NCBI GenBank assembly: GCA_018971745.1
Contig: JAGXAD010000006.1
Location: 1-11,771, forward strand
Direction of reading: 5' to 3'
DNA from: Patescibacteria group bacterium
Lineage (GTDB): Bacteria; Patescibacteriota; Minisyncoccia; Sungbacterales; GWA2-42-14
DNA length: 11,771 bases
Shown here: piece by piece, positions 3,600 through 11,771 of the stretch
Layout of the letters: each line of letters starts with the position of its first letter
Position numbering within the stretch: the stretch's first letter is position 1
Position numbers and translations under genes: made by a program
The notes under the pieces: model-generated
The model's input: the letters and a program-made list of their open reading frames with translations, nothing else
Told to the model about the DNA's origin: nothing
The model's database searches: none

Positions 3600-3968
3600 A
3601 TGTCAAAAAAAATATTGTTCGTTGAAGACGAACCTGATTTGCAAAAAACGCTCGGAAGCGTTCTGGAAAACATCGGTTTTGAAGTCGTCTCGGCTTTTGA
3701 CGGCGAAGCCGCAGTAACGCTCGCCAAACAACATCTCCCCGATTTGATATTGCTTGACCTTATTCTGCCCAAAAAAGACGGATTCCAAGTGCTTGAAGAA
3801 ATTAAAAAAGAAGAAAGCACCAAACGGATTCCGGTCATTATTTTAAGCAACCTTGAAAGCATCAACGAAATTGAGCGCGCCATTGAACTCGGCGCAACCA
3901 CCTATCTCATTAAAACAAACTATCGGCTTGATGAAGTGATTGACAAAATAAAAAATATCATCGGATAA
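3600..3968 (+). CDS. Stand-alone response regulator receiver protein (CheY/PilH-like)
   Basis: A 122-residue single REC domain with no output domain. The acidic pocket is Glu9-Asp10-Glu11, the phospho-acceptor is Asp53 in LILLDLILPKKDG, the switch residue is Ser83 (ILSNLES) and the conserved lysine is Lys105 (YLIKTN). It should be phosphorylated by the kinase encoded just upstream and act by binding a protein partner. Its position directly before pilB makes the pilus machinery a plausible target, as with single-domain regulators in other type IV pilus systems, but this is inferred. An upstream in-frame ATG at 3534 would add 22 residues encoded by the spacer repeat. The start at 3600 gives the normal family N-terminus (SKKILFVEDE). 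No Shine-Dalgarno motif precedes it. Confidence 0.9.
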   Translation: MSKKILFVEDEPDLQKTLGSVLENIGFEVVSAFDGEAAVTLAKQHLPDLILLDLILPKKDGFQVLEEIKKEESTKRIPVIILSNLESINEIERAIELGATTYLIKTNYRLDEVIDKIKNIIG

Positions 3969-4084
3969 AACAAAATTAAAATTTCAAATCTCAAAAATCA
4001 AAATGAACGAAAGAAAATTTTTCTTTCGGAAAAATTTTCCATCCTCAATTTTGAATTTTGACTTTTGCATTTTGAATTTATATT
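3969..4084. repeat. Heptad-built inverted repeat in the receiver-pilB spacer
   Basis: Left arm: five consecutive 7-bp units from 3971 to 4005 (CAAAATT, AAAATTT, CAAATCT, CAAAAAT, CAAAATG). Centre: perfect inverted repeat CGAAAGAAAA-T-TTTTCTTTCG (4008-4028), then a second, GGAAAA-A-TTTTCC (4028-4040). Right arm: four units at 4049-4076 (TTTTGAA, TTTTGAC, TTTTGCA, TTTTGAA). The GTG start of pilB follows 8 bp after the last unit. The arms are largely complementary across more than 30 bp, with a few mismatches and slips. Confidence 0.85.
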
Positions 4085-5536
4085 GTGCCCATTTTTGATT
4101 CTCAATTAAAAGCGTTTCTCCTGGACAAAAAGCTGATCAGCGAATCCGATTTGGCCACAGCCGAAACGGAAGCAAAAAAAACAAAACAGTCCCTTGCCGA
4201 CATTCTGCTTGCCAAACAGCTTATTCCGGAAGAGGAACTGCGAAAACTTGAAGCCTACATCGTCGGGCTTCCTTTTGTTAATTTGGAACGCGAAACCATC
4301 AATCCGGCAGTGCTTAATATTATTCCGGAACCAATCGCCAAAAAAAACAACATCATCTCGTATAAAACCAACGGCAAAGAATTGGAAGTTGCGATCGTCA
4401 ACCCGGACGACATCAGAATCCTTGAATTCGTCAAAAAGAAAACCGGACTTAAAATTCTGCCGCGGCTCGCCACGACCAAAGGCATTGCAAACGCCCTTAG
4501 CCAATACCAAAAAAGTTTGGAAACGGAATTCGGAGAAATCATCAAAAAGGAATCGGACGCAATGAGCATCATAAGCGATACCGCGAACGAAGAAGCGCCT
4601 GAGGATTTAAAAAAAATGGCTGAAGACCTTCCGGTCATCAAAATCGTAGATACGCTTCTCCGGCACGCCATTTTGCAAAACGCATCGGACATCCACGTTG
4701 AACCTGCGGAAAAAGAAATCAACGTGCGTTACCGCATTGACGGAATCCTCCGCAACACCATGGTGCTTCCCAAACAAATCGCCGCGGGAGTTGTCGCGCG
4801 CATCAAGGTTATGGCAAATCTGAAACTTGACGAACATCGCCTGCCGCAAGACGGCAGATTCAAAGTGGAAACGCCGGAATATAAAATTTCCTTTCGCGTT
4901 TCCATCCTGCCGGTCTTTGACGGAGAAAAAATAGTCATGCGCCTGCTTCCCGAATCGTCCAAAGGGTACACCCTGGAGACACTCGGATTTAATGCGCAAG
5001 GCGTTGAAAAACTGCACCGGAACATCAGAAAAACAACCGGCATTATTCTTGCCACCGGCCCGACCGGATCGGGAAAAACAACCACGCTCTACACGCTCCT
5101 TGACATGCTGAACAAACCCGGCGTCAACATTTCAACGGTTGAAGACCCCATTGAATACCGCATGCCGCGCATCAATCAAACCCAAGTTCGTCCGGAAATC
5201 GGCCTATCATTCGCCAACGGCTTGCGCTCGCTCCTGCGCCAGGACCCTGACATCATCATGGTCGGAGAAATCCGAGACAATGAAACCGCGAATCTCGCCA
5301 TTAACGCGGCGCTCACCGGGCATCTTGTTCTTTCAACGCTCCACACCAACTCGGCCGGCGGCGCAATCCCGCGATTACTCGACATGAATGTAGAACCGTT
5401 CCTCATTGCCTCAACGCTCAATGCGGTTATAGCGCAGCGGCTGGTGCGCACCCTGTGCAAAGAAAAAATAAGCCGGACGCTGAAAGATTTTGAAATTGAA
5501 ACGGTAAAAAAAATATCGATCCTGAACGGCTTCTGA
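4085..5536 (+). CDS. pilB: Type IV pilus extension ATPase PilB (main reading frame, C-terminus out of frame)
   Basis: Hexameric secretion-type ATPase that powers pilus assembly from the cytoplasmic face of the membrane with PilC. The N-terminal GspE-N/MSH-like region spans residues 1 to about 145. The ATPase domain has Walker [10 protein letters not shown] (325-333), Asp box EDPIEY (353-358), Walker [13 protein letters not shown] (387-398) and His box [12 protein letters not shown] (411-422), so the catalytic core is intact. The start is GTG at 4085, with no Shine-Dalgarno motif. This frame stops at 5534-5536 after 483 residues, about 100 short of the family. The missing tail is encoded in the -1 frame up to 5832, and joining at the A8 tract gives 582 residues, a normal PilB length. 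The Zn knuckle is reduced to one cysteine per half (Cys458 and Cys513 of the joined protein), where the family usually has CxxC pairs. Confidence 0.93.
5506..5513 (+). other. Putative -1 frameshift or slippage site in pilB (A8 tract)
   Basis: Eight A residues (5506-5513) are read in the pilB frame as A AAA AAA A, which fits the X XXY YYZ form of a -1 slippery heptamer. The zero-frame stop TGA follows at 5534-5536. A -1 shift here continues into the conserved PilB tail. I see no convincing downstream hairpin or upstream Shine-Dalgarno-like stimulator. Transcriptional slippage on the A run, a real frameshift mutation, or a homopolymer sequencing error are all possible. Confidence 0.5.
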
Positions 5537-5832
5537 AAATCCTCTCTGAAGAAAAGATAATAAAAACGGGAACGGCACTGCAAGAAATTTCTTTTGCCGA
5601 ACCGGCGCAATCGGAGTCGTGCCCGGACGGCTACAAAGGGCGAAGCGGCATTCATGAGGTTTTGGAAGTATCGCCCGCCATCAAGGAACTCATAGTAAAA
5701 AACGCGACTTCGGACGACATCCAAAATCAAGCCAGAAAAGAGGGCATGATCACTATGCTTGAAGACGGATTTCTTAAAGCCGCGCAGGGCATCACCTCCA
5801 TTGAAGAAATATTGCGGGTAACGAGCGAATAG
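5512..5832 (+). other. pilB: PilB C-terminal tail in the -1 frame
   Basis: From AAT at 5512 to the TAG at 5830-5832 the -1 frame encodes 106 residues that continue PilB. Family landmarks are CPDGYKGRSGIHEVLEV, then a helix, then GMITMLEDGFLKAAQGI and EEILRVTSE at the end; these are the classic last segments of PilB/GspE ATPases. No good start codon precedes the conserved part (the first ATG, at 5746, would give only 28 residues), so it is unlikely to be an independent gene. The codons and protein look undamaged, which argues that the tail is still used or that the shift is recent or artefactual. Confidence 0.85.
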
Positions 5833-5940
5833 TAAAAATGCAAAATGCAAAAGTCAAAATGCAAAAATTAAGATAGAAAATTTTTCAAAGAACAATTTTC
5901 TATCGTTTATTTTAATTTTTGACATTTGATTTTTAAATTT
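5833..5940. repeat. Heptad-built inverted repeat in the pilB-pilC spacer
   Basis: Left arm: four perfect 7-bp units at 5839-5866 (TGCAAAA, TGCAAAA, GTCAAAA, TGCAAAA). Core: perfect 11-bp stem GATAGAAAATT (5872-5882) with AATTTTCTATC (5894-5904), loop 11 nt. Right arm: units at 5910-5937 (TTTTAAT, TTTTGAC, ATTTGAT, TTTTAAA), followed 3 bp later by the pilC ATG. Arms align at about 25 of 35 positions as complements. The word TTTGATTTTTAAATTT (5925-5940) recurs exactly in the pilM-pilN spacer. Confidence 0.85.
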
Positions 5941-7164
5941 ATGTTATACTCCTACACCGCCGTGGATAAAACGGCGCAAGAAACCAAAGGAGAAGAAGAG
6001 GCGGAAAACGAAACAGAGCTGGCGCTTCATTTGCGCGAACGGGGGCTTTTGTTGTTGGAAACGACCGTACCCGGAGAAAAGGGAAAAGGAAAATCATTTG
6101 CGTGGCTCAACAAACTTCCCTTTTTCAATCGCGTCGGCATCGTGGAACGGATGATGTTTGCGAGAAATCTTGCCGTTATGATCGGCGCGGGGCTTGCCAT
6201 GACCAAAAGCATTGAAGCGGCGCGAAACCAAACCGCCAATGAAACGTTTAAACTTATTCTTGACGACATTCTGGATTCCATCACCAAAGGAAAAACATTC
6301 GCGGACAGTTTGCGGCCGCACGAAAAAATTTTCGGCGCTCTTTTCATCCGCATGATTGCCGCCGCGGAAACTTCGGGAAAACTGGAAAGCACCCTGAAAA
6401 TTCTTGCGCGCCAGATGAAACGGGACCATGATTTAAGCTCCAAAGTGAGAGGCGCGATGATTTATCCGGCAATCATATTTACCGTACTCATCGCCATCGG
6501 AATCCTCATGATGATTTTTGTCATTCCGACTCTCACGCAAACTTTCAACGAATTGGGAGTAGAACTTCCGTTCAGCACCCGCGTCGTTATCGCATCCAGC
6601 AATTTTATCTTGAACTTTTATTGGGTTTTACTTATTGGTATTCCGATGATGCTGTACGGCGCATTCCGATTTCTGAAAACGACTACAGGAAAACGGATCT
6701 TTGACCGAACAATCCTCCGCATGCCTTTATTCGGGCCGCTTATTCAAAAATATAATTCCGCGCGGTTCAGCCGCACGCTTGGTTCTCTGCTTTCGTCAGG
6801 CGTATCCATCATCGGTTCCCTTGAAATTACATCAGGCGTCGTTTCAAACGCGCTGTTTCAAGACGCAATCAAACAAGCTTCAATCGAAGTTGAAAAAGGA
6901 AAACAACTGAATGAAATTTTAAAACAATATCCGCGCATTTTCCCTCCGCTCGTAACGCAAATGGTGGAAGTCGGAGAAGAAACCGGGACCCTGTCGCACA
7001 TGCTGTTCCGCTTGGCGCTTTTTTTTGAAGAAGACGTTACCGCCACGACAAAAAACCTTTCCTCCGTTATTGAACCGGTCTTAATGATTATCGTCGGGAT
7101 TGTAGTCGGATTTTTCGCGGTTGCCATGATGCAGCCCATCTACAACAGCGTGGGGAATCTGTAA
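5941..7164 (+). CDS. pilC: Type IV pilus inner-membrane platform protein PilC
   Basis: A 407-residue GspF/PilC family protein that couples the PilB ATPase to pilin insertion in the cytoplasmic membrane. It opens with the typical MLYSYTAVDK start (family: F-x-Y-x-A-x-D). Two T2SSF domains follow, about residues 70-195 and 275-397, each with the family's glutamate-rich turns (AETSGKLES at 142-150 and VGEETGTLSHML at 344-355). Transmembrane helices lie at about 175-197, 223-245 and 377-400. An in-frame TTG at 5926 would add five residues encoded by the spacer repeat; the ATG at 5941 matches the family and is chosen. Directly after pilB in the usual order, without a pilT between them. Confidence 0.95.
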   Translation: MLYSYTAVDKTAQETKGEEEAENETELALHLRERGLLLLETTVPGEKGKGKSFAWLNKLPFFNRVGIVERMMFARNLAVMIGAGLAMTKSIEAARNQTANETFKLILDDILDSITKGKTFADSLRPHEKIFGALFIRMIAAAETSGKLESTLKILARQMKRDHDLSSKVRGAMIYPAIIFTVLIAIGILMMIFVIPTLTQTFNELGVELPFSTRVVIASSNFILNFYWVLLIGIPMMLYGAFRFLKTTTGKRIFDRTILRMPLFGPLIQKYNSARFSRTLGSLLSSGVSIIGSLEITSGVVSNALFQDAIKQASIEVEKGKQLNEILKQYPRIFPPLVTQMVEVGEETGTLSHMLFRLALFFEEDVTATTKNLSSVIEPVLMIIVGIVVGFFAVAMMQPIYNSVGNL

Positions 7165-7270
7165 CAAAAATGCAAACGTCAAAAGTCAAAAGTCAAAATG
7201 TCGGTGGCAATGTTCGCCGCAGCGAACATTGTTTCCGTAATTTTGCATTTTGCATTTTGCATTTTGACTT
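7165..7270. repeat. Heptad-built inverted repeat with GC stem-loop between pilC and the first minor pilin
   Basis: Left arm: units TGCAAAC, GTCAAAA, GTCAAAA, GTCAAAA (7171-7198). Core: perfect 10-bp stem CAATGTTCGC (7208-7217), loop CGCA, GCGAACATTG (7222-7231). Right arm: TTTTGCA, TTTTGCA, TTTTGCA, TTTTGAC (7241-7268). The frame of the following pilin stays open across the whole element, so the ATG at 7170 and the TTG at 7257 both lie inside repeat units. Confidence 0.85.
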
Positions 7271-7739
7271 TGAGCGTAAACAAATTGGTTTTTCTCTTAT
7301 AGAAATAATTATTGCCGTCGCGGTATTGGGCATTCTTGCCGTTCTTGCCGTAAGCGGGTTTTCGTCGTTTAAAGCGTCAGGCGAACTATTCCGTGCAGCG
7401 GATACGATTGTGGGAGCGCTCAACAATGCGCGCTCCCAAACTTTAGCGTCGCGCGATGATTCTCAATACGGGGTTTTTTTTGATCAAAACCAAAATCAAA
7501 TCGTTTTTTTTGCCGGCAATTACTACAATGCGTCTTCGCCAACCAATGAAATAACCGAACTTCCGACGCAAATAGAAATTTCATCCTTATCGCTCACCAA
7601 TGCCACCACCGCAATCGCGTTTGCCCGCCTTTCCGGCGACCCGAGCGCCACCGGAACCGTTGTGTTGCGAATCAAAGGAAACACGCTTCAAACCAAAACG
7701 ATTCAAATCAACGATTCCGGAACCGCAGAAATTAAATAA
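7170..7739 (+). CDS. GspH/FimT-like minor pilin (type IV prepilin)
   Basis: A secreted pseudopilin with a class III prepilin signal: G-FSLIEIIIAVAVLGILAVLAV, where cleavage follows the Gly and Glu is at mature position 5, then a single hydrophobic helix. The body has the GspH/FimT look (ALNNARSQTLASRD after the helix, a small Ser/Thr-rich beta domain, and FARLSGDPSATG with VVLRIKG near the end). Mature length is about 150 residues, normal for the family. The start is uncertain: ATG 7170 gives a 40-residue leader translated from the spacer repeat, while TTG 7257 gives an 11-residue leader (MHFDFERKQIG), more usual for prepilins. I give the longer limit but favour 7257 biologically. Likely part of a minor-pilin priming or tip complex with the next three genes. 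Confidence 0.85.
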   Translation: MQTSKVKSQNVGGNVRRSEHCFRNFAFCILHFDFERKQIGFSLIEIIIAVAVLGILAVLAVSGFSSFKASGELFRAADTIVGALNNARSQTLASRDDSQYGVFFDQNQNQIVFFAGNYYNASSPTNEITELPTQIEISSLSLTNATTAIAFARLSGDPSATGTVVLRIKGNTLQTKTIQINDSGTAEIK

Positions 7740-7757
7740 TTTTTCAACGTACTATCC

Positions 7758-8225
7758 ATGAAAGGATCCTCGCTTATTGAAATCATCGTCGGGCTTGCCG
7801 TTATTGCGACAGCGCTTCTTTTCCTTGGCAACATCGCGCAATATTCCCTGCGGCTTGTGGAAACAAGCACGATGCGCCTTCAGGCGACATTTCTGTTAAG
7901 CGAAGGCGCGGAGGCCGTTAAAACTATGCGCGATCGCGGCTGGACCGCAAACATCAATCCGTTACCGCTCGATACCGACTCTTATCTTGCGTTCAGCGCA
8001 AACCAATGGCAAGCCACCGCGACTCCGGAAACCATAGATAATGCGTTTAGCCGGAAATTCACGGTTGCCGGCGTCCAACGAAATTCATCCGATGACATCG
8101 TAGCGTCCGGCGGCACCGTTGACCCAAACACAAAAAAAATAACCGTTACGGTATCGTGGAACCAAGGCAGCCGGCCATTCTCGGAATCAATCTCAACCTA
8201 TATCACCAATCTTTTTAATAATTAA
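7758..8225 (+). CDS. PilV/GspI-like minor pilin (type IV prepilin)
   Basis: A 155-residue prepilin with a minimal leader: MKG, then SSLIEIIVGLAVIATALLFLGNIAQYSL. The Gly at -1 and Glu at +5 of the prepilin peptidase site are kept, but mature residue 1 is Ser rather than Phe or Met. The segment LLSEGAEAVKTMRDRGW just after the helix is typical of PilV/GspI-type minor pilins. The C-terminal half ends in beta strands (KKITVTVSWNQG). It follows the GspH-like gene after only 18 bp with no repeat element between them, and lacks a Shine-Dalgarno motif. Confidence 0.85.
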   Translation: MKGSSLIEIIVGLAVIATALLFLGNIAQYSLRLVETSTMRLQATFLLSEGAEAVKTMRDRGWTANINPLPLDTDSYLAFSANQWQATATPETIDNAFSRKFTVAGVQRNSSDDIVASGGTVDPNTKKITVTVSWNQGSRPFSESISTYITNLFNN

Positions 8226-8343
8226 TTTTTCAAACGGTTAAAAAATTCAAATCTCAAAATGCAAAATGACAATGTAATATGTAACATAATTTTGCATTTT
8301 GAATTGTCATTTTGAAACTTGCATTTTGATTTTTGCATTTCTT
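8226..8343. repeat. Heptad-built inverted repeat between the second and third minor pilins
   Basis: Left arm units CAAATCT, CAAAATG, CAAAATG (8248-8268). Right arm units TTTTGCA, TTTTGAA, TTGTCA (one base short), TTTTGAA, ACTTGCA, TTTTGAT, TTTTGCA (8290-8337), ending 6 bp before the ATG at 8344. Several pairing registers are possible: CAAAATGCAAAAT (8255-8267) with 8289-8301, or CAAAATGACAAT (8262-8273) with 8303-8314. The centre is a short TATGT-A-ACATA (8278-8288). TTCAAATCTCAAAA (8246-8259) recurs exactly in the receiver-pilB spacer at 3983-3996. Confidence 0.85.
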
Positions 8344-8844
8344 ATGAAAGGAACCAGCATCATAGAACTCATTATTTACGGCGCGATTCTCGCGTTTATT
8401 TCGCTCTTTGCCGTACATACTCTGCTTACGGTTACCGCCGCATTTTCGCAGGCGAGAACCGAACGGCTCATTAACGAAAACGGCAACAGCATTATGGAAC
8501 GGCTGATGCGAGAAATCCGCTTTGCCCAAGCCGTTGATGACGCAAGCGTGCTTGGCGCAAATCCAAGCGACCTCATACTCAAAACATTTGCGAGCCCGAC
8601 CGACGATACGCCCGCATCAATAGAATTTTCCTCAGCCAACAAAAATTTGCTGTTCAAAACGCGCGCCGGCAACACCATCCAATTAAACGCGGATAGCATT
8701 GCCGTCCCCGTATTCACGGCAACAAAACTAATCAACGGAAGCACCGTCGGAATCAAATTCCAGCTTGCCCTGCAGGCATCTTCCACAAAAATAAACATCC
8801 AAAAAATTTTTTACGGAACCGCGATTTTGCGGGGAAGCTATTAA
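8344..8844 (+). CDS. PilW/GspJ-like minor pilin (type IV prepilin)
   Basis: A 166-residue prepilin again starting MKG, then TSIIELIIYGAILAFISLFAVHTLL: Gly at -1, Glu at +5, one hydrophobic helix. ENGNSIMERLMREIRFAQAV after the helix is characteristic of PilW/GspJ-type minor pilins. The rest is a beta-rich globular domain without cysteines. A longer frame opens at TTG 8299, but those 15 residues come from the spacer repeat; the ATG at 8344 parallels the start of the preceding pilin gene (both begin ATGAAAGGA) and is preferred. With its neighbours it supplies the H-V-W set of minor pilins that prime or cap the pilus. Confidence 0.85.
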   Translation: MKGTSIIELIIYGAILAFISLFAVHTLLTVTAAFSQARTERLINENGNSIMERLMREIRFAQAVDDASVLGANPSDLILKTFASPTDDTPASIEFSSANKNLLFKTRAGNTIQLNADSIAVPVFTATKLINGSTVGIKFQLALQASSTKINIQKIFYGTAILRGSY

Positions 8845-8931
8845 TAAAATTTTCAATTTACAATTTTTAATTTTCAAATTTGAAAATTGTATCATTGAAA
8901 ATTCAATGAAAATTGAAAATTGAAAATGACA
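8845..8931. repeat. Inverted repeat with opposite polarity (T-rich arm first) before the PilX-like gene
   Basis: The T-rich left arm (8848-8875) precedes the A-rich right arm, the reverse of the other elements. Core: perfect palindrome AATTTTCAAATTTGAAAATT (8869-8888). A second small stem is CATTGAA-AA-TTCAATG (8893-8908). 7-bp units TGAAAAT occur at 8881-8887, 8896-8902 and in tandem at 8907-8927. The only usable in-frame start of the next gene (TTG 8913) lies within the array. Confidence 0.75.
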
Positions 8932-10178
8932 AATTTAAACGACAATCGCGAGTACCCGCGGAATGTTCGGAAAAAGGACAGGCACTCATGACGATGGTTA
9001 TCTTCACCCTGCTCATTTCCCTGGGCGGGCTTTTGAGTTTTTCTTCCATTGCTTTAAACGAAACAACAACTTCCCGCGCAGCGCTTTGGGGAGAAAAAAG
9101 TTACTATGTTTCCGAGGCGGGCCTTGAAGACGCGAGCTACCGCATCATGCGAGGAAAGATGTACGCGCCGATCCAAACCATGACGATTGACGGATTCAGC
9201 GCGACAACGACGATTGCCGCCGTCGGCGGAACGAAAGAAGTAACCGCACTCGGCAATGTTCTGCGCGACGAAAGAACCACAAAAACAATTCTTAAATCTT
9301 CAAACGGCGTTTCCTTTTTTTACGGAATCCAGGTGGGCGACGGCGGGGTCGTTATGGGAAACAACACTTCCATTGTCGGGAATGTTTTTTCCAATGGCGA
9401 TATCAACGGCGGAGGCAAAACGCAAAGCACCGTTACCGGGACCGCAATTGCCGCGGGAATCCATACGATCCAAAACATCACCGTCAACCAAAACGGATCA
9501 GCGCAAAATTTTAACAATTGCAATATCGGCGGAACTGCAACATATGTTTCCCAGTGGAACGGCTGCACCGCGGGCTCGACGCAAACCGCATCCCAAGCTC
9601 CAGCCCCGGGAACATTCCCCATCACGGGAGAACAAATTACCAATTGGAAAAACGACGCGGTTGCCGGCGGAACAATCAACAGTATAACCGTCAATACGAA
9701 CACTTCGCTTGGCCCCAAAAAAATAAACGGCAACCTGACGCTTGGAAACAATGTCACGCTTACGATTACCGGAACCGTATGGGTAACCGGAACCATTGCC
9801 TTCGGCAACAATAACACGCTCCGGCTTTCCGCTTCGTACGGCGAGTTAAGCGGGCTCGTTATCGTTGACGGCGCAACCAATGTCGGAAACAACGCGATCT
9901 TTCTTGGTTCGGGAACCGCCGGAAGTTACCTGATGTTGCTTGATACCGCGATCAACGACGCAATTGACATAGGGAATAACGCAAACGGAGCCATCTTCTA
10001 TGCGCCAAACGGAACCATTGACATCGGAAACAATTTAAGCCTGCACGAAGCAACCGCGTACAAATTGGAAATCAGCAATAATTCTTCAATTATCTACGAA
10101 AACGGGCTTGCGAATCTCCAATTTTCATCCGGCCCGAGCGGCGGATACCAGATAGAACGATGGAAAGAAACAGAATAG
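8913..10178 (+). CDS. PilX-like pilus-associated protein with Gly-Asn-rich repetitive body
   Basis: A 421-residue protein with a short cytoplasmic head carrying KGQALM (21-26), one transmembrane helix (about 26-48), then ALWGEKSYYVSEAGLEDASYRIM (57-79), the pattern of PilX N-terminal-type pilus assembly proteins. The remaining 300 residues are rich in Gly, Asn, Thr and Ile, with GNN motifs at 149, 278, 298, 325, 354 and 372 and a variant SNN at 388, usually after an aliphatic residue. This suggests a parallel beta-solenoid exposed outside the cell. Cys203 and Cys218 could form a disulfide. It is about twice the length of a classical PilX. An in-frame TGA at 8907-8909 limits the start to TTG 8913, inside a repeat array; ATG 8988 would remove the KGQAL motif. 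Possible role: tip adhesin or minor-pilin partner. Confidence 0.75.
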   Translation: MKIENDKFKRQSRVPAECSEKGQALMTMVIFTLLISLGGLLSFSSIALNETTTSRAALWGEKSYYVSEAGLEDASYRIMRGKMYAPIQTMTIDGFSATTTIAAVGGTKEVTALGNVLRDERTTKTILKSSNGVSFFYGIQVGDGGVVMGNNTSIVGNVFSNGDINGGGKTQSTVTGTAIAAGIHTIQNITVNQNGSAQNFNNCNIGGTATYVSQWNGCTAGSTQTASQAPAPGTFPITGEQITNWKNDAVAGGTINSITVNTNTSLGPKKINGNLTLGNNVTLTITGTVWVTGTIAFGNNNTLRLSASYGELSGLVIVDGATNVGNNAIFLGSGTAGSYLMLLDTAINDAIDIGNNANGAIFYAPNGTIDIGNNLSLHEATAYKLEISNNSSIIYENGLANLQFSSGPSGGYQIERWKETE

Positions 10179-10187
10179 CATAACCTA

Positions 10188-10196
10188 TGATACAAT
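10188..10196 (+). promoter_or_regulatory. Possible extended -10 promoter before pilM
   Basis: TGA-TACAAT in the 53-bp spacer after the PilX-like gene fits an extended -10 element; no clear -35 is seen. It would start a transcript near 10203, about 29 nt before the pilM ATG. This spacer has no heptad inverted repeat, so pilM onward may form a separately initiated unit. Weak evidence in AT-rich sequence. Confidence 0.35.
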
Positions 10197-10231
10197 AAAA
10201 CAAACGGCGCGCATTCGTATTCGCAACCATT

Positions 10232-11332
10232 ATGTTCCCAAAACTTATACAACAAATTATCAATCCGCCGGCATTCGGTCTGGATATTTCTGATTTAACG
10301 GTAAAATACGCAAAACTTAAAGAGACAAAAGGCGGGAAACGGATTGATTACTTCGGAGAAATAAACATTCCGGACGGCATCGTGGTATCCGGAGAAATCA
10401 AAAACGAAAAGGAGCTCACACGCATCCTGCAAAATGGGCTTCGCGACCGCCAAGGGAAACCAATCAAAGATCGTTTCATCGTTGCGTCATTGCCGGAAGA
10501 AAAAAGTTTTTTGAACATAGTTCAGCTGCCGAAAATAAAACCGGAACAAATTCCGCTTGCCATCCGATGGGAACTTGAAGGAAACATCCCGTTCCCCCTG
10601 AACGAAATTTATTTTGACTACGAGGTAATTCCCTCCGGCGAAGAAAAAACGGACCACGTGGACATTTTGGTCACCGCATTCCCAAAAACCATTGTTGATT
10701 CGTACGTGCGGGTCGTGCAAGGCGCCGGCTTTATGCCGGCCGTGCTTGAACTTGAATCGCAGGCAATAAGCCGGGCGCTTATTGACAAGAAAAATCTGAA
10801 CCGCGCAATTATCATTCTTGATCTCGGCGCAACCAAAACAAGCTTTATCACTTTCAGCAAAAACGCGCTCACCCTGACGCTCGGCATTAATTTGGGAGGA
10901 AGAAATTTTGACCAGTCAATCGCAAAAAATCTCGGCATTAGCATCACTGAGGCGGAACAAATTAAAAAAGAAAACGGCCTTGATAAAAACTATAAAAACG
11001 GCGTCATTCTTGAATCCGTTATTCCGCTGCTTTCCGAACTCGTTGACGCCATCAAACATCAGGTTATTTTTTATCAGGAACATTCGCTTCACCGCCATAA
11101 CGCGGAACCGGACATTTCCGCCGTTATTCTTTCGGGCGGCGACGCAAATTTAATCGGCATTGAACGATATCTCAATATTAATCTTAAAAAAACCGTTGTG
11201 CTCGGCAATCCGCTTATCAACATCTACGGGGAAAACCCGAAAGAAATTCCTCCAATTCCAAAAAACAAAACGTTAAAATACGCCACCGCATTCGGGCTGG
11301 CGCTCCGCGGCATGGACTGGAACGAATCTTAA
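10232..11332 (+). CDS. pilM: Type IV pilus assembly actin-like ATPase PilM
   Basis: A 366-residue cytoplasmic protein with the FtsA/ParM-like actin fold. The phosphate-1 motif is FGLDIS (15-20), phosphate-2 is ILDLGATKTS (195-204), and the adenosine motif is VILSGGDANL (298-307). VASLPEEKSFLNIVQLP (84-100) is a typical PilM block, as is IRWELEGNIPFPLNE (111-125). PilM binds the N-terminal tail of PilN and forms the inner-membrane alignment complex with PilN and PilO, linking the ATPase/platform to the rest of the machine. PilN follows downstream, as expected. The ATG start gives the normal N-terminus; no Shine-Dalgarno motif is visible. Confidence 0.95.
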   Translation: MFPKLIQQIINPPAFGLDISDLTVKYAKLKETKGGKRIDYFGEINIPDGIVVSGEIKNEKELTRILQNGLRDRQGKPIKDRFIVASLPEEKSFLNIVQLPKIKPEQIPLAIRWELEGNIPFPLNEIYFDYEVIPSGEEKTDHVDILVTAFPKTIVDSYVRVVQGAGFMPAVLELESQAISRALIDKKNLNRAIIILDLGATKTSFITFSKNALTLTLGINLGGRNFDQSIAKNLGISITEAEQIKKENGLDKNYKNGVILESVIPLLSELVDAIKHQVIFYQEHSLHRHNAEPDISAVILSGGDANLIGIERYLNINLKKTVVLGNPLINIYGENPKEIPPIPKNKTLKYATAFGLALRGMDWNES

Positions 11333-11466
11333 AATGGGTACAAAAGCGTGTTCGAAAATTTTTAAAACGCAAAATTAAAATTTAAAAATGGTTGTATTTT
11401 GCCCGCTGGCAAAATACAATTCACCGCAATTTTAACTTTTGATTTTTAAATTTTGAATTGGATATT
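11333..11466. repeat. Heptad-built inverted repeat with 12-bp core stem between pilM and pilN
   Basis: Left arm units CAAAATT, AAAATTT, AAAAATG (11370-11390). Core: perfect 12-bp stem TTGTATTTTGCC (11392-11403), loop CGCT, GGCAAAATACAA (11408-11419). Right arm units TTTTAAC, TTTTGAT, TTTTAAA, TTTTGAA (11430-11457), ending 9 bp before the pilN ATG. CAAAATTAAAATTT (11370-11383) is identical to 3971-3984, and TTTGATTTTTAAATTT (11438-11453) to 5925-5940. No T run directly follows the core, so a simple terminator is unlikely. Confidence 0.85.
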
Positions 11467-11771
11467 ATGTTCAACCTCAATCTGCTTCCCGAAAAAGAAA
11501 AACAAAACGTCATATGGGAAAAACGAACCAGCCAAACGTTCTATTTTGGTTCGCTTGCGATTGCGTCAGTGTTTATTTTTTTAATCTTGCTCTTTCCTTC
11601 CTACATATTTCTTGCGCTTCAAAACGATGAAATCGCGCGCAACCTTGAACTTGAAAAAAAAGCGCAGGAAACATTGCAGATAACAACCGTTGAAAACCGA
11701 ATTGTTGCAATCAACGCAAATACGCGGCGCATCGTCCAAAACAACACCGAACCGTTCACGCCGGGAATTTT
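11467..11771 (+). CDS. pilN: Type IV pilus assembly protein PilN (5' part, cut by window edge)
   Basis: The first 101 codons of an open frame running off the window. The N-terminus FNLNLLPEKEK matches the conserved NLLP motif by which PilN's cytoplasmic tail binds PilM. A single transmembrane helix follows at about residues 28-50 (SLAIASVFIFLILLFPSYIFL), then a long charged helix likely to form a coiled coil (about 51-90), as in PilN. Position right after pilM agrees. PilO would be expected next, outside the window. The ATG has only a weak GGA 4 nt upstream. Confidence 0.88.
   Translation, partial: MFNLNLLPEKEKQNVIWEKRTSQTFYFGSLAIASVFIFLILLFPSYIFLALQNDEIARNLELEKKAQETLQITTVENRIVAINANTRRIVQNNTEPFTPGI

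Follow-up and report, generated by a model that had tools for sequence, protein, structure and literature searches.

Palindromic elements with seven-base arm units in the spacers of a type IV pilus locus of a Patescibacteria group bacterium

The window analysed here is a whole stretch of 11,771 nucleotides of contig JAGXAD010000006.1 (assembly GCA_018971745.1) from a Patescibacteria group bacterium, and it contains a type IV pilus locus in which pilB, pilC, a pilin-like frame and pilM were recognised by profile matches (Table 1). Six spacers of 90-134 bp in this window carry palindromic elements, and the short spacer 7740-7757 contains none. A preliminary description had proposed that five of these spacers share one design, in which tandem NNCAAAA units of 7 bp (heptads), a central stem-loop and complementary tandem TTTTGNN units are followed by the next start codon. 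We found phased CAAAA units opposite TTTTG units, with a stem between them, in all five (5/5), and a sixth element built of other heptads, element 6 in Table 1, had been overlooked. With somewhat better than even confidence, we read these spacers as dispersed, fast-turnover, heptad-armed palindromic repeats that settle between genes.

Table 1. Genes and palindromic elements of the window. Bracketed fractions give exact units per phased array; z is the RNA folding score of the spacer against 200 shuffles.
Feature	Positions	Strand	CAAAA or left arm	Stem	TTTTG arm	z	Remarks
Element 1	3969..4084	.	3985-4003 (2/3)	GAAAATTTTTC 4013-4023 / GAAAAATTTTC 4029-4039	4049-4074 (4/4)	-4.5	response-regulator gene / pilB spacer; core type 1
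pilB-type ATPase	4085..5832	+					T2SSE 3.3e-112 for 4085-5533; frame broken after 5536
Element 2	5833..5940	.	5834-5866 (4/5)	5872-5886 / 5890-5904	degenerate, reaching 5935	-5.4	pilB / pilC spacer; core type 1, orientation opposite to element 1
pilC-type inner membrane protein	5941..7164	+					T2SSF 1.9e-53
Element 3	7165..7270	.	7166-7198 (3/5)	CAATGTTCGC 7208-7217 / GCGAACATTG 7222-7231	7241-7266 (4/4)	-5.5	pilC / pilin gene spacer; core type 2
Pilin-like reading frame	7170..7739	+					N_methyl 1.4e-06; open across element 3
Element 4	8226..8343	.	8241-8266 (2/4)		8290-8301 (2/2) + 8324-8335 (2/2)	-4.0	precedes reading frame at 8344; core type 4; ATTGT unit within T arm
Element 6	8845..8934	.				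-4.2	inverted heptads AATTTTC / GAAAATT
pilM	10232..11332	+					PilM_2 9.9e-49
Element 5	11333..11466	.	11356-11389, degenerate	TTGTATTTTGCC 11392-11403 / GGCAAAATACAA 11408-11419	11430-11455 (2/4)	-3.0	pilM / next reading frame (11467) spacer; core type 3

The elements were confirmed to be more ordered than AT-rich spacer. CAAAA or TTTTG pairs at 7-bp spacing were counted 15 times in the six spacers and likewise 15 times in the five originally described, whereas 2000 dinucleotide shuffles of each spacer set gave means of 0.17 (maximum 3) and 0.15 (maximum 2), respectively. The strict 7-bp phase that had been claimed holds for several arms of elements 1-3 and is weaker in elements 4 and 5, as judged from the exact-unit counts per array. 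The arm-stem-arm design also stood, but the start codon expected to follow it is ambiguous after element 3, where the pilin frame is open throughout the element from the ATG at 7170. The central stems are not a single sequence, and at least four core types were sorted by eye; second copies of core types 2 and 3 were seen by eye at L027:4020-4134 and L016:2864-2971, respectively (L-numbers denote sampled stretches and G-numbers the genomes of relatives). The core-type-2 elements at 7170-7300 and L027:3999-4200 are each traversed by an open pilin-like frame, and from candidate start codons these two frames encode similar leader peptides (KSQN..GGNV..EHCF.NFAFCILHFDF) upstream of the cleavage motif. 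A unit resembling the ATTGT of element 4 was noticed by eye in four Patescibacteria records (L104, L107, L144 and L168).

A search of the same draft genome (842 kb) for tandem units supported the design outside the window. The CAAAANNCAAAANNCAAAA pattern of three exact units matched 86 times, in part with overlaps, and 0 times when reversed as a control; exact four-unit matches numbered 39, at one place overlapping into five exact units. The elements are spread over many contigs, and control specific to the pilus was rejected on this ground; their link to the pilus locus is best read as incidental, with the elements as passengers there. We sampled 48 stretches of this genome (290,162 bases), 28 chosen for having hits and 20 without hits. 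The sampled contigs hold 26 paired elements, in 19 of which the core gap is 41-49 nt and in 16 of which both arms have 4-5 units. When one mismatch per unit was tolerated, arrays of two (25), three (12), four (39), five (21), six (1) and seven (1) units were counted. Many of the elements appeared by eye to be held closely in the gaps between a stop codon and a start codon. Neighbouring genes (crude gene calls) were co-directional for 20 of 25 elements and for 92 of the 130 spacers of 60-400 nt that served as background, and there was no clear enrichment in a particular gene arrangement. Several elements share a short TTTGAGCGTCAGCGATTATG-like sequence in the gap that separates the right arm from the probable start codon of the following gene (L012:4375-4394, L012:6080-6100, L013:5926-5946 and the left flanks of L019 and L017).

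Copies of one core were found at unrelated places and in both orientations. A core-only search located core type 1 (GAAAATTTTTC / GAAAAATTTTC) at 15 places in the sampled contigs, that is, element 1 and 14 further places, and heptad arms are clear around these copies except in L026, which is decayed, and L023, which has a poor left arm. Among the 10 copies with co-directional neighbours, 7 are oriented one way and 3 the other. Covariation of the two-base linkers between arms was tried as a sign of pairing and rejected, with an agreement of 0.45 within elements, below the 0.59 between elements, and with 500/500 shuffles at or above the observed value. The low agreement within elements may come from two distinct arms occurring in either orientation and not from avoidance of pairing, a reading that is unproven.

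We then asked what is kept in relatives by means of a scan blind to the motif, in which 17 of 21 matches were needed at each lag from 4 to 15 and runs explained by a shorter lag were dropped. In 40 stretches from 37 relatives (720,870 bases), lag 7 accounted for 74 runs and no other lag for more than 9. No lag-7 run appeared in three rounds of second-order Markov versions or in 50 kb of E. coli, which gave one run at lag 12. When a crude gene caller was used to scan the two compartments of the relatives apart, 28 lag-7 runs, with no other lag above 4, fell in spacers (74,184 bases), and 36, many of them at frame edges, fell in called frames (643,860 bases). Lag 7 also leads in the hit contigs of the original genome, and only 2 lag-7 runs occurred in 82,836 bases of its 20 contigs without hits, which were hand-picked and are hence a non-random sample. 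The units themselves differ among relatives and include GCTATAA, CTAAAAG, TTAGAAC, CATGAAN, ATTAGGA and others. Conservation in relatives was thus observed for the 7-bp design and not for its sequence. As to pairing, a facing complement scoring above all 6 flank shuffles, expected by chance for about 1 in 7, accompanies 46 of the 74 lag-7 arrays and is missing from the other 28. Units of other lengths were also seen: 8-bp units (TCGTTAAC, CGTCAACC, AGCTTCTT) replace heptads in some spacer hairpins of G029 (L253:6778-6858 and L253:15859-15945) and G038 (L351 spacers), and in L048 of G031 the units measure about 9-10 bp by eye.

The paired CAAAA pattern extends to at least 116 stretches of other records. 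Among the matches listed, the record titles name Bacteroidetes, Acidobacteria, Planctomycetota, Proteobacteria, cyanobacteria, Oscillochloris, Omnitrophota, Patescibacteria and others, and Mucilaginibacter and Terrimonas are among the holders of paired elements; viral contigs gave 0 matches to the pattern. Outside the CAAAA elements, 83 lag-7 runs occur in the 116 loci, compared with 16 or fewer for every other lag. Long one-arm CAAAAGG runs were seen in L106, L130, L146 and L173 (Proteobacteria SKS1.bin131 and Thiobacillus UBA6205), and several loci of these two share a core-like stretch, which gives them the look of a separate expanded family.

Turnover was followed at 43 orthologous spacer pairs, taken from G029 and G038 of one family and from G022 and G015 of one genus. 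Five pairs were dropped for a spacer above 450 nt, leaving 38 classed by one array criterion (16/21 at lag 7 or 8). An array was found in at least one genome in 16 of the 38. The other spacer of these 16 pairs was shorter than 40 nt in 4, missed the criterion in 7 and held an array as well in 5, of which 3 showed no similarity above 50 shuffles. The spacer before a gene that we take, from its N-terminus, to be S4-like has CAAAANN units in G029 and NNCAATT/GGAAATT in G038, and the pair L094/L272 opposes CAAAA to AATAACC heptads. In the pair L093/L264 both spacers carry CAAAA elements, and the core is inverted according to its asymmetry and to BLAST (82% over 115 nt in reverse). Exact CAAAA matches number 39 in G029 and 6 in its family mate G038. 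At the pilus locus itself, in G005 of the same family, hairpins with heptads of other sequence (GCTACAA, NNGAAAA) flank pilC on both sides. The spacer upstream of pilC is at most 45 nt in 12 of 27 parsed relatives, where the preceding gene is not always pilB (2 further loci were unparsed), and the element is therefore dispensable at that place. A non-heptad long-arm palindrome, TGATGCGGTTTTCTCGG...CCGAGTCCGCATCA, at L238:14807-14981 of G022 is conserved in G015 (L350) with a local score of 223 against a shuffle maximum of 23, and many more partial matches to it occur in G015; not every hairpin in these spacers therefore turns over fast. Sister-genome pairs make the gain, loss and replacement of arrays readable.

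Heptad arrays were also found within genes. In G029 they lie in frame within miaA, mnmA and gyrA, genes named by their solved homologues, and all three map to residues that are extra relative to those structures; the mnmA array sits in a loop of variable length. At the gyrA site G029 has 15 residues and G038, which lacks an array, has 8, a net difference of 21 nt or three heptads, and mnmA of G038 carries an AATTTCC array at about the position of the G029 array. These in-gene cases are single arrays and not whole palindromes, with the pilin leader as a possible exception. Peptides such as KSKVKNQN within conserved proteins can thus be repeat inserts, and caution is advisable when they are met.

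In the window itself, intrinsic terminators were not supported as an account of the elements, since a G+C-rich stem followed by a T run was found 17 times in 3900-11771 against 13.7 (sd 3.6) in shuffled sequence; two of the cores, at 4008-4028 and 11392-11419, were the only ones to score as terminators, both on the minus strand. The pilB frame changes near an A-run (5517-5550), where the open reading frame 4085-5536 stops and an open stretch in another frame continues to 5832; this break could be genuine or an assembly error.

Repeated cores, both orientations, arrays within genes and presence or absence at orthologous spacers together argue that the elements are dispersed repeats changing as DNA. 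Three readings had been offered at the outset, an RNA element, a protein-bound array and a dispersed repeat, and of these the dispersed repeat fits best. Each element consists of a hairpin core with an array of about four 7-bp units on either side, the two arrays facing each other. Copying of whole elements into new places may give rise to the core families, and the arrays may gain, lose and swap heptad units through replication slippage or template switching between repeats. We propose that elements accumulate between genes because they do little harm there, and within genes only in-frame lengths in tolerant loops would survive. Most copies are probably without function, and the elements look like fast-changing, mostly dispensable repeat DNA and not like a dedicated pilus switch.

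Several observations weigh against the dispersed-repeat reading. Arrays of the original genome exceed five units in only 2 of 99 cases, unlike the outcome of open-ended slippage. In the 15 core-type-1 copies, which were chosen by their core, the CAAAA/TTTTG columns are conserved above the two-base linkers, with a mean consensus fraction of 0.85 for the motif and of 0.64 (left arm) and 0.49 (right arm) for the linkers; without L026 and L023 the motif and linker values are 0.91/0.67 and 0.85/0.54. Short and longer rules for the choice of strand gave identical numbers, and both placed the L011:888 copy opposite to the strand preferred in the core alignment. Neutral decay alone is therefore insufficient for the sparing of CAAAA, and selection or exchange between units is needed. 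The linkers are drawn mostly from a small set, with TG, GT, TT and AT making up 201 of 236 in the stretches of the original genome and the same four plus GG making up 976 of 1083 in the 116 loci of other records, so that the set is shared across phyla. At the orthologous spacers, 5 of the 7 that missed the array criterion score 14-15/21, just below the cut of 16, so that the counts may understate replacement and overstate loss; two of these near-cut pairs are slightly more similar than shuffles. Arrays co-occur at orthologous spacers with odds of 3.7, which is not significant (p = 0.12, or 0.10 when both spacers are at least 40 nt), and an earlier hand classing that gave Fisher p = 0.001 and 0.048 is superseded by the uniform criterion applied to the 38 pairs. 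Such co-occurrence, if true, would favour function or hot spots. The motif-blind array loads of the two family mates are similar, with 48 in 240 kb of G029 and 51 in 357 kb of G038. Finally, no target-site duplication was found by eye, nor any autonomous partner in a search limited to Y1_Tnp.

The sparing of CAAAA is also what would be expected if the elements were selected as RNA, in which case a transcribed heptad hairpin between cistrons would set how the mRNA is processed, how stable it is or how the next gene is translated. Cold-shock or S1-type OB-fold proteins would bind the UUUUGNN heptads, each heptamer taking one protein, and the design would be kept while the sequence is free. Consistent with this possible but rather unlikely explanation, many elements lie between stop and start codons (by eye), arm pairing persists across unrelated motifs (46/74), all 6 window spacers fold below their shuffles, and the passages of PMC4679880 on TAACTGA heptamers located ahead of start codons note one CspB per heptamer and propose binding by S1, Csp or Csr. 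However, core orientation is mixed relative to the genes, arrays also lie within genes, several sister genomes lack an element at the same junctions, co-directional spacers are not clearly enriched, and Rfam gave 0 matches at gathering score in the window. We also considered, as an unlikely variant, that the spacer elements form a class defined by design, whose hairpin arms stepped by 7 nt are read by a widespread nucleic-acid machine, either an OB-fold protein with one per heptamer or a polymerase. Spacing and pairing would then be kept while heptads are swapped, and the orthologous spacers of sisters could therefore hold unrelated, equally built hairpins; if true, a structure of operon spacers has been overlooked by family searches based on sequence. 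A DNA-level counterpart, an inverted operator or nucleoid site with 7-bp spacing that is bound by a protein, would suit the sparing of CAAAA, the narrow unit number and the inverted arrangement, but it seems extremely improbable, given that one genome carries several unrelated heptads and that orthologous sites can differ in theirs. Promoter arrays were not supported either, as promoter-like matches were only modestly above shuffles (16 against 10.2, sd 3.3).

Mobility by a transposase would account for other features of the elements. If they were non-autonomous miniature inverted-repeat transposable elements (MITEs) mobilised by a transposase with the heptad arms as its recognition sites, their discrete size, the core families at unrelated places, both orientations and presence or absence at orthologous spacers would follow. 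This we consider distinctly unlikely, because target-site duplications were not seen by eye in the copies of G029 or of the original genome, for which the search returned no other genome of its genus, the many unrelated heptads per genome would demand many enzymes, and the CAAAA pattern is absent from the viral contigs searched. Y1_Tnp (PF01797), the sole transposase family searched, does not track array load, and a Y1 or RAYT mover was rejected accordingly: matches number 0 in G029 (100% complete and array-rich), 0 in the array-bearing G011 and G015, 4 in G001, whose single stretch lacks lag-7 arrays, and 2 in the original genome. It is very unlikely, in turn, that the elements are plain heptanucleotide microsatellites born of slippage, favoured by a polymerase contact of about 7 nt and with complementary arms that are incidental. 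Lag 7 does lead for unrelated motifs in relatives, in the hit contigs of the original genome and in the loci of other phyla, and heptamers are reported to be the commonest class of simple repeat in most prokaryote genomes studied, for which a polymerase contact was proposed (Mrazek 2007, as cited in parts of PMC4679880 and PMC4692102). That unrelated motifs share a preference for lag 7 suggests a physical unit, a proposal already made for those heptamers. Yet the lead of lag 7 is absent in E. coli and hardly present in the contigs without hits, CAAAA units are degenerate and not identical, arrays of the original genome rarely exceed five units, and complementary arrays oppose each other around repeated cores. 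Slippage alone does not account for the facing complement, for the scarcity of arrays longer than five units, for the sparing of CAAAA or for the small choice of linkers, four features that could be obtained by unit exchange between arms or arrays, or by selection on RNA or DNA structure. If the design is selected, it would represent an RNA or DNA structure that is invisible to ordinary family searches.

The elements can be set beside several known systems. Rickettsia palindromic elements (RPE) are palindromic repeats of about 100 bp that have invaded spacers and, with the reading frame preserved, genes as well, and they form sequence families that are not known to have a 7-bp phase. The elements here resemble RPE in being palindromes of about 100 bp and in the in-frame insertion into miaA, mnmA and gyrA of G029, there as single arrays, and they are set apart from RPE by the 7-bp phase. 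REP, REPIN and BIME sequences, associated with TnpA-REP (RAYT), are likewise dispersed intergenic hairpins, of 20-40 bp, and bear an adjoining tetranucleotide tag of the GTAG/CGTC type. In comparison, the arms described here are longer and phased, inspection of 16 aligned copies by eye showed no such tag next to the core (no systematic scan was made), and the Y1 transposase expected in carrier genomes had 0 PF01797 matches in the array-bearing G029, G011 and G015. Prokaryotic MITEs are short non-coding inverted-repeat elements that occur in families of copies, and these families are matched here; the apparent difference is that a target-site duplication, looked for by eye, and an autonomous partner, looked for through Y1_Tnp alone, were not found.

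A likeness is also seen to published heptanucleotide repeats. A literature search, sparse in subscription papers, yielded no description of facing CAAAA-heptad hairpins; CAAAATT units appear in the promoter-section table of a cyanobacterial cluster and are not discussed in the passages concerned (PMC2799420). TAACTGA heptamers, found chiefly close to start codons, are known from marine Beggiatoaceae as well as from some Cyanobacteria and Bacteroidetes, and the Maribeggiatoa genome has one indirect set against 169 direct sets, according to portions of PMC4679880. For GGGAATC of Xanthomonas, four units are preferred and one inverted-repeat example is given in portions of PMC4692102. As far as these accounts go, the TAACTGA, GGGAATC and Calothrix repeats share with our elements the 7-bp unit, an intergenic bias and a scattered phylogeny, and they are mostly direct arrays of one heptamer. 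The elements described here also consist of a tandem 7-bp unit, but their copies are not near-identical, with 5 of 7 positions mostly fixed and a linker that varies, and they are not single direct arrays, given the facing complement at most lag-7 arrays of relatives. In the portions of the literature consulted, the cause of the heptamer excess among bacterial simple repeats has so far only been hypothesised. The present elements give this excess an anatomy, in which complementary and degenerate arrays, each about four units long, face each other across repeated cores and one genome contains several unrelated heptads, and this distinguishes them from the heptanucleotide repeats described before.

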